DNA from: Dyella amyloliquefaciens
Lineage (GTDB): Bacteria > Pseudomonadota > Gammaproteobacteria > Xanthomonadales > Rhodanobacteraceae
Direction: 5' to 3'
Assembly: GCF_004296575.1 (NCBI RefSeq)
Contig: NZ_SAYT01000003.1
Location: 124,001 to 188,000, forward strand
DNA: 64,000 bases
Part shown: one piece after another, positions 40,320-43,073 of the stretch
Numbering within the stretch: the stretch's first letter is position 1
How the letters are laid out: every line of letters begins with the position of its first letter
The notes under the pieces: generated by a model
Database searches by the model: none
What the model saw: only the letters and a program-made list of their open reading frames with translations
Told to the model about the DNA's origin: nothing
Program-made: the position numbers and the translations under genes

Positions 40320-40610
40320 ATGAATATCAACAAAGACGCTTATCGTCAGTTTCAGGAAGAACTGGCTGCACTGGACAAGGAAAAGGAACAGCGCCAACGA
40401 CGCACGGCTGAGTCGCCGATGGAAAGTGCCAGGCGCGAATTTCTGTCGTTGCGCGATCGCTACCACCTGAGCGTTGCGGATGTGATCGCCTTCTTTCCCG
40501 AAGAGGAGGGCGTCGTTTATCTCCAGGGCTTGATCGCCGCTGCGGAAGCTGCGCCGGCAGTTGCCCGCAAGCGTCGGACAAAGCGACAGGTGGAAGACGG
40601 GCAGCCTTGA
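40320..40610 (+). CDS. Small coiled-coil protein, possibly H-NS/MvaT-like
   Basis: 96 residues. N-terminal charged coiled coil (AYRQFQEELAALDKEKEQRQ), then ARREFLSLRDRYHLSVADVIAFF, which resembles the MvaT/H-NS oligomerisation region (…LRALMGEYQKSLRDVIALL), and a basic tail ARKRRTKRQ. The C-terminal AT-hook-like DNA-binding module of H-NS proteins (Y-x-N-P…GxxxxG…W) is absent. It could be a truncated H-NS-like modulator or an unrelated helical protein. No strong RBS. Confidence 0.4.
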   Translation: MNINKDAYRQFQEELAALDKEKEQRQRRTAESPMESARREFLSLRDRYHLSVADVIAFFPEEEGVVYLQGLIAAAEAAPAVARKRRTKRQVEDGQP

Positions 40611-40734
40611 GCACGACGTCCCGTCGCCTTGCTTGAATGCCGTCACGGGATGGGCACTTGCCGGCAGAGCGGCCCGTGACGCCTCCGTAACAGCCGTTCT
40701 GCGATACACGGGATGAGCTTGTCGGGAGGCGAAC

Positions 40735-41127
40735 ATGATTGAGCAGATCAGCGGACTTCCGCCGGGAGCGCTGGGGTTTCGTGCCAGCGGGCAGGTGACG
40801 GCGACGGACTATGAGCGTGTGCTCGTGCCCGATATCGAGGCCGCATTCACCCTCAATCGCAAGCTTCGCCTGCTTTATCACGTCGGTCCGGACTTCACCG
40901 GATTCGATCCGGGAGCCATGTGGGACGATGCGATGCTCGGTTTCCGGCACTTCAGCGGCTGGGATCGCGTGGCGCTGGTGACCGATGTGCAATGGCTTCG
41001 GGTTGCCTCGCTGGCCATGGGCTTCGCGATCCCGGCGCACTTCAAGTTGTTCCGCAACGCTGAGATCGACCAGGCGCTGGGATGGATCAGCGAGCCCCGG
41101 CCGCCGGAAGAAGAAGGGAACACCTGA
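40735..41127 (+). CDS. SpoIIAA-like (STAS-related) protein
   Basis: 130 residues matching the SpoIIAA-like family (PF11964 type): LGFRASGQVTATDYERVLVPDIEAAF, KLRLLYHVGPDFTGFDPGAMWDD (in parts), FSGWDRVALVTDVQWLR and HFKLFRNAEIDQALGWI. These proteins have a STAS-like fold; the role is unknown. GGGAGG RBS before ATG 40735. Followed 51 bp later by the asnB leader region. Confidence 0.82.
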   Translation: MIEQISGLPPGALGFRASGQVTATDYERVLVPDIEAAFTLNRKLRLLYHVGPDFTGFDPGAMWDDAMLGFRHFSGWDRVALVTDVQWLRVASLAMGFAIPAHFKLFRNAEIDQALGWISEPRPPEEEGNT

Positions 41128-41178
41128 AACCTTTTTCTCCTATTGCCACGGCACGCAGGCTGTGGTGAAGTCGCTGTC

Positions 41179-41307
41179 ATGACGCTTCTTCACGCCCGTA
41201 TCGTTGCCATGGTCGCCGCATCCGCGGTGGCGAACGAGCACGTGCGCGCGCTGAACAACAATAACGCCAATAACAATACCCGCAATGACGGGTGGGCCGG
41301 CGTGTAA
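41179..41307 (+). CDS. Asn-rich leader peptide of asnB
   Basis: A 42-codon frame, ATG 41179 to TAA 41305-41307, reading MTLLHARIVAMVAASAVANE, HVRALNNNNANNNTRNDG and WAGV. Nine of 42 codons are Asn, seven of them in two runs (41254-41265 and 41269-41277), plus one at 41284. GTGAAG lies 8 nt before the start as a modest RBS. It ends 29 nt before a strong terminator that precedes asnB. The arrangement matches leader peptides of amino-acid attenuators such as trpL or hisL, but for asparagine. Too short to be found by ordinary gene calling. Confidence 0.8.
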   Translation: MTLLHARIVAMVAASAVANEHVRALNNNNANNNTRNDGWAGV

Positions 41308-41354
41308 GCAACACAGATCCATACACACGCAAAAAGGCCCGCTCACAGCGGGCC
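41278..41354 (+). promoter_or_regulatory. Transcription attenuator of asnB
   Basis: Four pairing segments can be read directly: 1 = ACCCG (41278-41282); 2 = CGGGTGGGCC (41289-41298); 3 = GGCCCGCT (41336-41343); 4 = AGCGGGCC (41347-41354). Segment 1 pairs with the start of 2 (ACCCG/CGGGT). Segment 2 (41291-41298) pairs with 3 over 8 contiguous positions including two G-U pairs. Segment 3 pairs perfectly with 4, forming the terminator. A ribosome stalled on the Asn codons would cover segment 1, free segment 2 and form the 2:3 antiterminator; one reaching the stop codon would cover 2 and allow 3:4. Confidence 0.78.
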
Positions 41355-41361
41355 TTTTTGT
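41331..41361 (+). terminator. Intrinsic terminator in the asnB leader
   Basis: 8-bp stem GGCCCGCT / AGCGGGCC (extendable by A-T pairs, AAAAA/TTTTT), loop CAC, followed by TTTTTGTTTTT. It lies between the leader peptide stop and the asnB start 39 nt further on, so it must be read through for asnB expression. Confidence 0.92.
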
Positions 41362-41399
41362 TTTTCTGCCTCGCGAAAAACAACCAGGAACTCCATCCC

Positions 41400-43073
41400 A
41401 TGTGTTCGATCTTCGGCATGTTTGATCTGCAACCCGGCGACGACCTCGCCAGCCTGCGCCAGCAGGCGCTGGAACTGTCCCAACGCCAGCGTCATCGCGG
41501 GCCCGACTGGAGCGGCGTGTTCGTCGATGCCGGCGTGATCCTGGTGCACGAGCGCCTCGCCATCGTCGATCCCGCCAGTGGCGCACAGCCGCTGCGTTCG
41601 CGCGACGGCGAGCTGGCCCTGGCCGTGAACGGTGAGATATACAACCACCGGGAGCTGCGTGCCGCCAGCGGTTACGACTTCACCACGGGCTCGGACTGCG
41701 AGGTGATCAACGCGCTGTATCGCGAACAGGGATCGCCGGCGGAGTGGGTGGGCAGGCTCAACGGGATATTCGCCTTCGCGCTGTGGGACAGCGAGGCCGC
41801 GCGCTATGTCATCGCGCGCGATCCGATCGGCGTCTGTCCGTTGTATTGGGGACACGACAGCGTGGGACGCTTGTGCGTGGCCTCCGAGATGAAGGCCCTG
41901 GTCGGCATCTGCGCGGACGTCGCACCGTTTCCCCCGGGACATGTGTACGACAGCGTCGACGGCGAGTTGCACAGGTACTACCGGAAGGACTGGCGTGACT
42001 ACGCGCGTACCGAGGGCCACGCGGTTTCGTCGGACGCGTTGCGCGAGGCATTCGAGCAGGCGGTACACCGCCAGTTGATGACCGATGTGCCCTATGGCGT
42101 GCTGCTGTCGGGTGGGCTGGATTCCTCGCTGGTCGCCGCGTGTGCCGCACGGTTTGCGCGCCGGCGCGTGGAGGACAACGACCAGGCCGAAGCGTGGTGG
42201 CCGCGCCTGCATTCCTTTGCCATCGGTCTCGAAGGCTCACCCGATCTCGCGGCGGCGCAGGTGGCTGCAGATGCGCTGGGTACGGTGCACCACGGCTTCG
42301 TCTATACCTTCTGGGAAGGCCTGGATGCGTTGCCCGAGGTGATCCGCCACATCGAAACCTACGATGTCACCACCATCCGCGCCTCCACGCCGATGTACCT
42401 GCTGGCACGCCGCATCAAGGCCATGGGCGTGAAGATGGTGCTGTCGGGCGAAGGGTCGGACGAGATCTTCGGCGGCTATCTGTACTTCCACAAGGCGCCT
42501 TCGGCCGAGGCCTTCCACGAGGAAACCGTGCGCAAGCTCGATGCCTTGCACAGTTACGACTGCCTGCGCGCGAACAAGTCGATGATGGCCTGGGGCGTGG
42601 AGGCGCGTGTGCCGTTCCTAGACCTCGAATTCCTCGACGTCGCCATGGGCATGGACGCCCGGCACAAGATGGCCGGGCAGGGACGAATGGAGAAGGCCGT
42701 GCTGCGCGAAGCGTTCCAGGGTGCGCTGCCCGACAGCATCCTGTGGCGACAGAAGGAGCAGTTCAGCGATGGCGTCGGCTATGGCTGGATCGACGGATTG
42801 AAGGCGCATGCCGAGCAGACGGTGAGTGACCGCGAATTTGCCGCGGCGGCCACGCGCTATCCGCACAACACGCCGGCCACCAAGGAGGCGTACCTGTATC
42901 GCCGCATCTTCGAGAAGTTTTATCCGGGTCAGGCCTGTGCGGAGACGGTACCTGGCGGCAAGTCCATCGCCTGTTCGTCGCCGGCGGCACTGGCGTGGGA
43001 CCCGGCGTTTGCCGCGGCGGCGGATCCGTCCGGGCGAGCGGTGCGTGATGTGCATCAGCAGGCGTTGACCTGA
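41400..43073 (+). CDS. asnB: Asparagine synthetase B (glutamine-hydrolysing)
   Basis: Makes asparagine from aspartate, ATP and glutamine. 557 residues, close to E. coli AsnB (554). Begins MCSIFG, so Cys2 is the glutaminase nucleophile, which fixes the start at 41400; RHRGPDWSG and LAVNGEIYNHRELR follow. Synthetase domain with PP-loop LLSGGLDSSLVAA and GEGSDEIFGGYLYFH. Expression is probably set by the Asn-codon attenuator just upstream (41179-41361). Followed by a REP element. Confidence 0.96.
   Translation: MCSIFGMFDLQPGDDLASLRQQALELSQRQRHRGPDWSGVFVDAGVILVHERLAIVDPASGAQPLRSRDGELALAVNGEIYNHRELRAASGYDFTTGSDCEVINALYREQGSPAEWVGRLNGIFAFALWDSEAARYVIARDPIGVCPLYWGHDSVGRLCVASEMKALVGICADVAPFPPGHVYDSVDGELHRYYRKDWRDYARTEGHAVSSDALREAFEQAVHRQLMTDVPYGVLLSGGLDSSLVAACAARFARRRVEDNDQAEAWWPRLHSFAIGLEGSPDLAAAQVAADALGTVHHGFVYTFWEGLDALPEVIRHIETYDVTTIRASTPMYLLARRIKAMGVKMVLSGEGSDEIFGGYLYFHKAPSAEAFHEETVRKLDALHSYDCLRANKSMMAWGVEARVPFLDLEFLDVAMGMDARHKMAGQGRMEKAVLREAFQGALPDSILWRQKEQFSDGVGYGWIDGLKAHAEQTVSDREFAAAATRYPHNTPATKEAYLYRRIFEKFYPGQACAETVPGGKSIACSSPAALAWDPAFAAAADPSGRAVRDVHQQALT

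Follow-up and report, generated by a model that had tools for sequence, protein, structure and literature searches.

A putative asparagine-responsive transcription attenuator precedes asnB in Rhodanobacteraceae and in two further families of the order

We describe a candidate ribosome-mediated transcription attenuator that would make asnB, the gene for glutamine-hydrolysing asparagine synthase B, respond to asparagine in Dyella amyloliquefaciens. The element lies in a 64,000-nucleotide stretch of the genome, hereafter the window, and consists of a short open reading frame rich in asparagine codons, a set of mutually exclusive RNA pairings and an intrinsic terminator, all directly ahead of asnB. 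We put the probability of this reading at roughly nine in ten, as judged by comparison of sequences. Leader-peptide attenuation is a textbook mechanism known for a limited number of amino acids, with trpL, hisL, leuL, thrL, ilvL and pheL as the amino acid attenuators of E. coli. The asnB leader resembles these in having a short open reading frame with codons for the product of the pathway, competing 2:3 and 3:4 hairpins and an intrinsic terminator ahead of a biosynthetic gene. It differs from them in that it would sense asparagine, probably lacks a 5' untranslated region and precedes what looks like a single gene. What appears to be new is therefore the amino acid sensed, the switch itself being of a known kind, and comparative support for it is strong. 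An earlier sequence-only reading had proposed an asparagine attenuator from the window itself, and this interpretation is now supported by the retention of the element in 79 of 79 loci, by covariation in the terminator, by the placement of the stall codons and by the presence of an asparaginyl-tRNA synthetase (AsnRS) where GatB and AsnA are not detected.

The leader open reading frame (41179..41307, plus strand) has 42 codons plus a stop, beginning with ATG at 41179-41181 and ending with TAA at 41305-41307. It contains nine Asn codons (N19, N26-29, N31-33 and N36), of which seven form the control region AAC AAC AAT AAC GCC AAT AAC AAT at 41254..41277 on the plus strand; the earlier description of a 42-codon frame with nine Asn codons, seven of them in two runs, is exact. 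The presence of such a frame before asnB is not due to chance. The two strands of the window together hold 360 frames that begin with ATG and have 20-50 codons, and the leader alone among them has at least five Asn in ten codons. The 80 asnB relatives that we collected (589,079 bases) hold 3,274 ATG-started frames of this size, and 72 of these reach the same density, every one of them being the leader.

These relatives are the best 80 of 578 asnB loci and come mainly from Dyella and Rhodanobacter, with some from Frateuria, Fulvimonas, Dokdonella and other assemblies. Two loci in which the contig is cut too near asnB (L049 and L053) were excluded from every leader count, so that the window and 78 relatives make up the usable set. 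Comparison of the asnB upstream regions, which the sequence-only reading had called for, shows that the Asn-rich frame is retained at near-fixed spacing, together with the terminator, in all 79 loci. The frames are 33-45 codons long and their stop codons are located 26-33 nt ahead of a GGCCCGC/GCGGGCC hairpin; the weakest leader, that of L072, has three Asn codons. Both AAC and AAT are seen in seven of the eight Asn-rich columns of the alignment while Asn itself is retained. Thus, it is the amino acid or its tRNA that has been kept and not a DNA word.

The terminator is a 14-bp hairpin at 41330-41360 with the loop CAC. Its 5' arm, segment 3 (CAAAAAGGCCCGCT, 41330..41343, plus strand), is supported by sequence, pairing and covariation. 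Covariation also supports its 3' arm, segment 4 (AGCGGGCCTTTTTG, 41347-41360), which together with the T tract TTTTT occupies 41347..41365 on the plus strand. The hairpin and its T tract had been recognized correctly from the sequence; the core GGCCCGCT begins 28 nt past the leader stop, where 29 nt had been given. As had also been described, asnB follows just beyond, with the hairpin ending at 41360 and the gene starting at 41400. Over the 14 base pairs of the stem 90.5% of the cells pair, and 87 cells exhibit double-sided changes as compared to 35.9 in shuffled alignments, a value of 87 being reached by 0 of 500 shuffles. Two of the five terminator measures, the number of pairs with double changes and the number of pair types, are no higher than in the shuffles.

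Segment 2, the 5' arm of the antiterminator (GGGTGGGCC, 41290..41298, plus strand), pairs in the window with GGCCCGCTC across nine positions, counting G-U pairs. This pairing includes the eight positions at 41291-41298 that were noted earlier as complementary to the 5' arm of the terminator, and 97% of the aligned cells in segment 2 pair with segment 3. Among 105 leaders, 83 have a 2:3 run of at least 7 bp, whereas shuffling of segment 2 produces such a run in 144 of 2,100 cases; the leaders come from two locus collections that have some genomes in common, with eight leaders that have no hairpin under the strict rule dropped and L129-L132 and L135 omitted as repeats. The antiterminator is extended by an inner helix, with the 5' arm GCGTGT at 41300..41305 and the 3' arm ACACGC at 41325..41330 (both plus strand), that reaches 5 bp or more in 77 of 79 loci and in 306 of 1,580 shuffles. 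It takes the form GCGTGT/ACACGC in 22 loci and CGCGTA/TACGCG in 12, with shorter or longer forms in the remainder. Segments 1 and 2 can form an early hairpin (41278..41293, plus strand), with ACCCG at 41278-41282 and CGGGT at 41289-41293 just as the sequence-only reading placed them. This protector hairpin has moderate support from pairing counts, reaching 5 bp or more in 65 of 79 loci as compared to 633 of 1,580 shuffles.

The strongest evidence for a switch is that segments 2, 3 and 4 change jointly between families. The terminators of the Rhodanobacteraceae (f1, the family of the window) are of the GGCCCGC type. In a second family (f2, which appears to be the Xanthomonadaceae/Lysobacteraceae) 13 of 18 loci have CCCGCATC terminators with ACCCGCATC/GATGCGGGT-like arms, and in their leaders a CCGATGCGGG-like segment replaces the one of GGGCC type. 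In both types segment 2 pairs with segment 3 of its own type over a median of 9 bp and with that of the other type over 5 bp, the first 25 of 88 type A leaders having been used for this test; the small types B (three leaders) and C (one leader) display no difference between own and foreign pairing. A2 comprises 51 of the 79 leaders. Within the Rhodanobacteraceae alignment the outer 2:3 helix and the inner helix show zero double-sided changes and a covariation score not above that of shuffles, which for the outer helix is as expected if segment 3 must suit both of its partners. Of the two stems that the sequence-only reading proposed to check for covariation, 3:4 covaries, and 2:3 does so not within the Rhodanobacteraceae but in being re-made in f2.

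One could argue that the leader peptide acts through its own sequence, either by arresting the ribosome or in trans, as a small protein or RNA, and that the level of asparagine is not the signal. The portions of the peptide that are conserved are the Asn run and the peptide end, and a report on Sinorhizobium (S.) meliloti trpL describes a terminated leader RNA and a peptide that act in trans (PMC7298713). However, the conserved peptide end overlaps segment 2 and is accounted for by RNA pairing, while the rest of the peptide drifts, with substitutions at the three codon positions in the ratio 2978:3018:2560 and, among codons outside of the Asn block with a single change, 1159 synonymous changes and 2629 that are not. 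This drift is at the same time a point against the attenuator reading. Additionally, many f2 leaders end otherwise (RPMRDCALGR and similar), leaving Asn as the common factor, and the controlled gene is one that makes asparagine. We consider a signal independent of asparagine to be quite improbable.

Attenuation further depends on where a ribosome would stall, which we modelled by hiding the RNA to 12 nt beyond the first base of the A site and folding the transcript up to segment 3. With the A site 17 to 9 codons ahead of the stop the antiterminator fold is obtained in 79 of 79 loci, and this productive zone covers 477 Asn codons out of the 524 counted over the final 18 positions of the leaders. 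From the seventh codon ahead of the stop the antiterminator count drops to at most 8 of 79 loci, and positions 7 and 6 hold 46 Asn codons, which are outside of the productive zone. With a ribosome at the stop codon all 79 loci give the terminator, as do 76 of 79 when folded without a ribosome. In f2 together with a third family, f3, the antiterminator results from a stall on Asn in 20 of 21 leaders, and all 21 yield the terminator with a ribosome at the stop. In the model, therefore, the control codons are so placed that a stalled ribosome would free segment 2 and a ribosome at the stop codon would block it. Equilibrium folds of the full-length leader mostly favor the terminator, with the antiterminator winning upon an Asn stall in just 11 of 79 loci and never in 68 of 79. 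The asnB leader behaves in this respect like the known attenuators thrL and leuL of E. coli, for which a like calculation returned the terminator only, at all of the stall positions tried. Consequently, the order of transcription, meaning co-transcriptional kinetics, must matter.

The sequence of events that we propose is as follows. Transcription would begin at the leader ATG or within one or two bases of it, and a ribosome would bind the nascent RNA at its 5' AUG. When charged Asn-tRNA is scarce the ribosome would stall on the Asn run at codons 26-33, so that segment 2 and the inner helix could pair with the RNA up to and including segment 3. Formation of the antiterminator would preclude the terminator and polymerase would enter asnB. 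When asparagine is ample the ribosome would proceed to the stop codon and make segment 2 unavailable, so that hairpin 3:4 would form and transcription would end near 41360-41366.

A different possibility is that stalling at Asn codons alters translation of asnB, or Rho-dependent termination, and not the intrinsic terminator. The leader and asnB probably share a transcript, and the start of the terminator is 100-411 nt away from asnB in some loci. Against this, the GGCCCGC/GCGGGCC hairpin is present in 79 of 79 loci with an outer stem that covaries, and a separate Shine-Dalgarno-like site belongs to asnB in 75 of 79, as compared to 7 of 79 for the leaders. This explanation thus seems even less credible than one based on the peptide sequence. 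As a separate observation, the interval between terminator and asnB contains one or more copies of repeat units holding CCATCCGCGCAA...CCGGCCATCCATGGCCGA or GGCCATGGATGGCCGGTA...GGAAATGCAGGAGCA in L013, L016, L020, L024, L035, L054, L066, L068 and others.

The promoter, which had not been part of the sequence-only reading, directly abuts the leader and suggests a leaderless start. A -35 box TTGCCA (41143..41148, plus strand) is followed by an extended -10 element, TGG + TGAAGT (41163..41171, plus strand), that ends 7 nt ahead of the ATG. The common pattern, TTG followed by 16-18 nt and a -10 box abutting the ATG, occurs in 75 of 79 loci of the first set versus 14 of 3,950 shuffles, with the leader start shifted by hand in L067 (to GTG) and in L080. 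In f2 and f3 an initial promoter pattern matched 2 of 21 leaders; with the -10 part widened to TAnnnT, the common pattern matches 19 of 21 versus 0 of 1,300 shuffles scored likewise. The distance from the end of the -10 box to the ATG is 5-8 nt in 74 of the 75 loci, and a TGn extension precedes the box in 73 of 75. Transcription typically starts about 7 nt past the -10 box, and so the leader RNA should begin at the ATG. As judged by the position of the promoter, the leader mRNA is probably leaderless, in which case polymerase and ribosome would start nearly together at the AUG. The window leader is one of the seven with a Shine-Dalgarno-like word; this GGTGA (41164-41168) overlaps the -10 element, and could alternatively represent a weak Shine-Dalgarno site. 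In f2 a palindrome, CGCAACNGTTGCG, is found over the -35 box within the 60 nt ahead of the leader ATG. It is exact in 8 of 18 loci (for example L148-L151, L153, L157 and L165) and present with at most two mismatches in 14 of 18 versus 3 of 900 shuffles, and is possibly an operator for some regulator.

The view that the hairpin merely terminates the SpoIIAA-like gene upstream, whose frame runs in the direction of asnB and stops at 41127 some 200 nt ahead of the hairpin, and that the Asn-rich frame is accidental, is the least tenable of all, given that 75 of 79 loci have a promoter-like pair right ahead of the leader ATG, the Asn frame in 79 of 79 with no other short frame equally Asn-rich in 589 kb, and a segment 2 that lies inside of the frame and changes along with the terminator between families.

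The asnB gene itself (41400..43073, plus strand; 557 amino acids) scores 860.8 bits against the NCBIfam model for asparagine synthase B (NF006949, cut-off 499) and 439.5 bits against TIGR01536, and Pfam agrees on asparagine synthase B. With the SpoIIAA-like gene upstream on the same strand and an aspartyl-protease-like gene downstream on the opposite strand, asnB looks like a single-gene unit. Of 61 genomes, 59 have AsnRS (TIGR00457) above cut-off, among them that of the window, where GlnRS is also present. Neither GatB nor AsnA was detected in the window's genome at E<=0.001. Consequently, charged tRNA-Asn should report free asparagine, either made by AsnB or imported. The same genome has a second asparagine-synthase-like frame (L205, contig C11 at about 336656), an open frame of 708 amino acids with 41% identity across the first 167 residues that adjoins a glycosyltransferase-like frame. 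AsnB-like proteins of this kind usually function in polysaccharide modification. An asnB relative with 55% identity is also located at 3001-4626 of L082, a contig catalogued as viral in a viral-contig collection.

Analysis of the wider distribution indicates that the element extends beyond the Rhodanobacteraceae. We built a covariance model (R1) of the element, which at E<=0.01 has matches in 135 of 398 genomes from the order. Among 20 matches picked to favor other families, 18 directly precede asnB (74-83% identity) and have an Asn-rich frame, and two are terminators behind other genes. We rejected two R1 matches, the second one in the window's own genome (C11:89042) and one in G015, that consist of the end of another coding frame and then a terminator, with no asnB. 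A second survey, in which the genomes are partly shared with the first, covered 131 genomes of the order; 78 of these have asnB at E<=1e-150 and all 78 upstream regions were scanned, that of L193 comprising just 328 bases. Using a limit of four Asn per ten codons that was chosen post hoc with the data already seen, an Asn-rich frame is found ahead of 37 of the 38 asnB genes with at least 76% identity (17 from f1, 18 from f2 and three from f3), the exception being G131 with three Asn. The corresponding count for genes with at most 71% identity, mainly from other families, is 1 of 40 (G109, family f8). The element thus marks three families of the order and not the order as a whole. A search of 321 genomes of the class with R1 at E<=0.001 returned the window's own genome as the sole match; R1 also missed three f2 genomes, so that this search does not bound the distribution. 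In a further set, 4 of 185 genomes of the class have an asnB match at E<=1e-150, three of them within the order, and the one outside of the order (L200) has no Asn-rich frame. A plasmid search with the leader gave no match.

Several individual loci are of interest in their own right. The G109 locus (L175) has an Asn-rich short frame, MFAIYNTINTTNNRLLRSAGSF, and then a AAAAGCCCGCTT/AAGCGGGCTTTT terminator, located 147-78 nt ahead of an asnB with 67% identity; it may be a remote member of the group, or such control may have arisen a second time. In L140 (from G131) and L072 the Asn run has three codons and the terminator is retained, and these leaders are perhaps decaying attenuators.

Control of asparagine synthesis is known from other systems. 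Asn-specific T-box riboswitches of Firmicutes respond at the RNA level to charging of tRNA-Asn. The asnB leader would answer the same signal, but through a translating ribosome where the T-box RNA binds the tRNA directly; no T-box is among the eight Rfam matches at E<=1 in 40600-41800. In E. coli AsnC controls asnA, which is likewise asparagine control of an asparagine synthetase gene, but by a DNA-binding protein and for a different synthetase. All Rfam matches in 40600-41800 are below threshold, including Thr_leader (RF00506) at 28.9 bits versus a gathering threshold of 55. Kinship with Thr_leader was rejected, as the best of its 37 sub-threshold matches at E<=1 in the same genome is a plain terminator. 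Leaderless regulatory short open reading frames have been described for S. meliloti trpL (PMC7298713) and for the polycysteine frames of mycobacteria (as cited in the review PMC9031893). The asnB leader resembles both in that its RNA would start at the ATG, as the promoter position suggests, and differs in the amino acid concerned. The sequence-only reading knew of no well-described Asn attenuator, and none is found among the literature matches listed, in a search that covered mainly openly accessible papers. Neither asparagine nor asnB occurs in the main texts of a premature-terminator survey (PMC2965389) and of PMC2659441 and PMC1262725. Within this scope, the Asn-specific attenuator is likely the first of its kind to be described.

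On balance we favor, with clearly less confidence than the attenuator itself, the fuller description of a previously undescribed asparagine-specific attenuator that is shared by three families of the order, the Rhodanobacteraceae and two others, that is leaderless, and to which one family has added a palindromic operator over the -35 box. An asparagine case across three families would add one amino acid to the known set of attenuators, and the small leader gene named here is likely missed by annotation. The asnB leader may also offer an independent test case for switches of this kind on leaderless mRNAs, and would provide a ready genetic sensor for the charging of tRNA-Asn.
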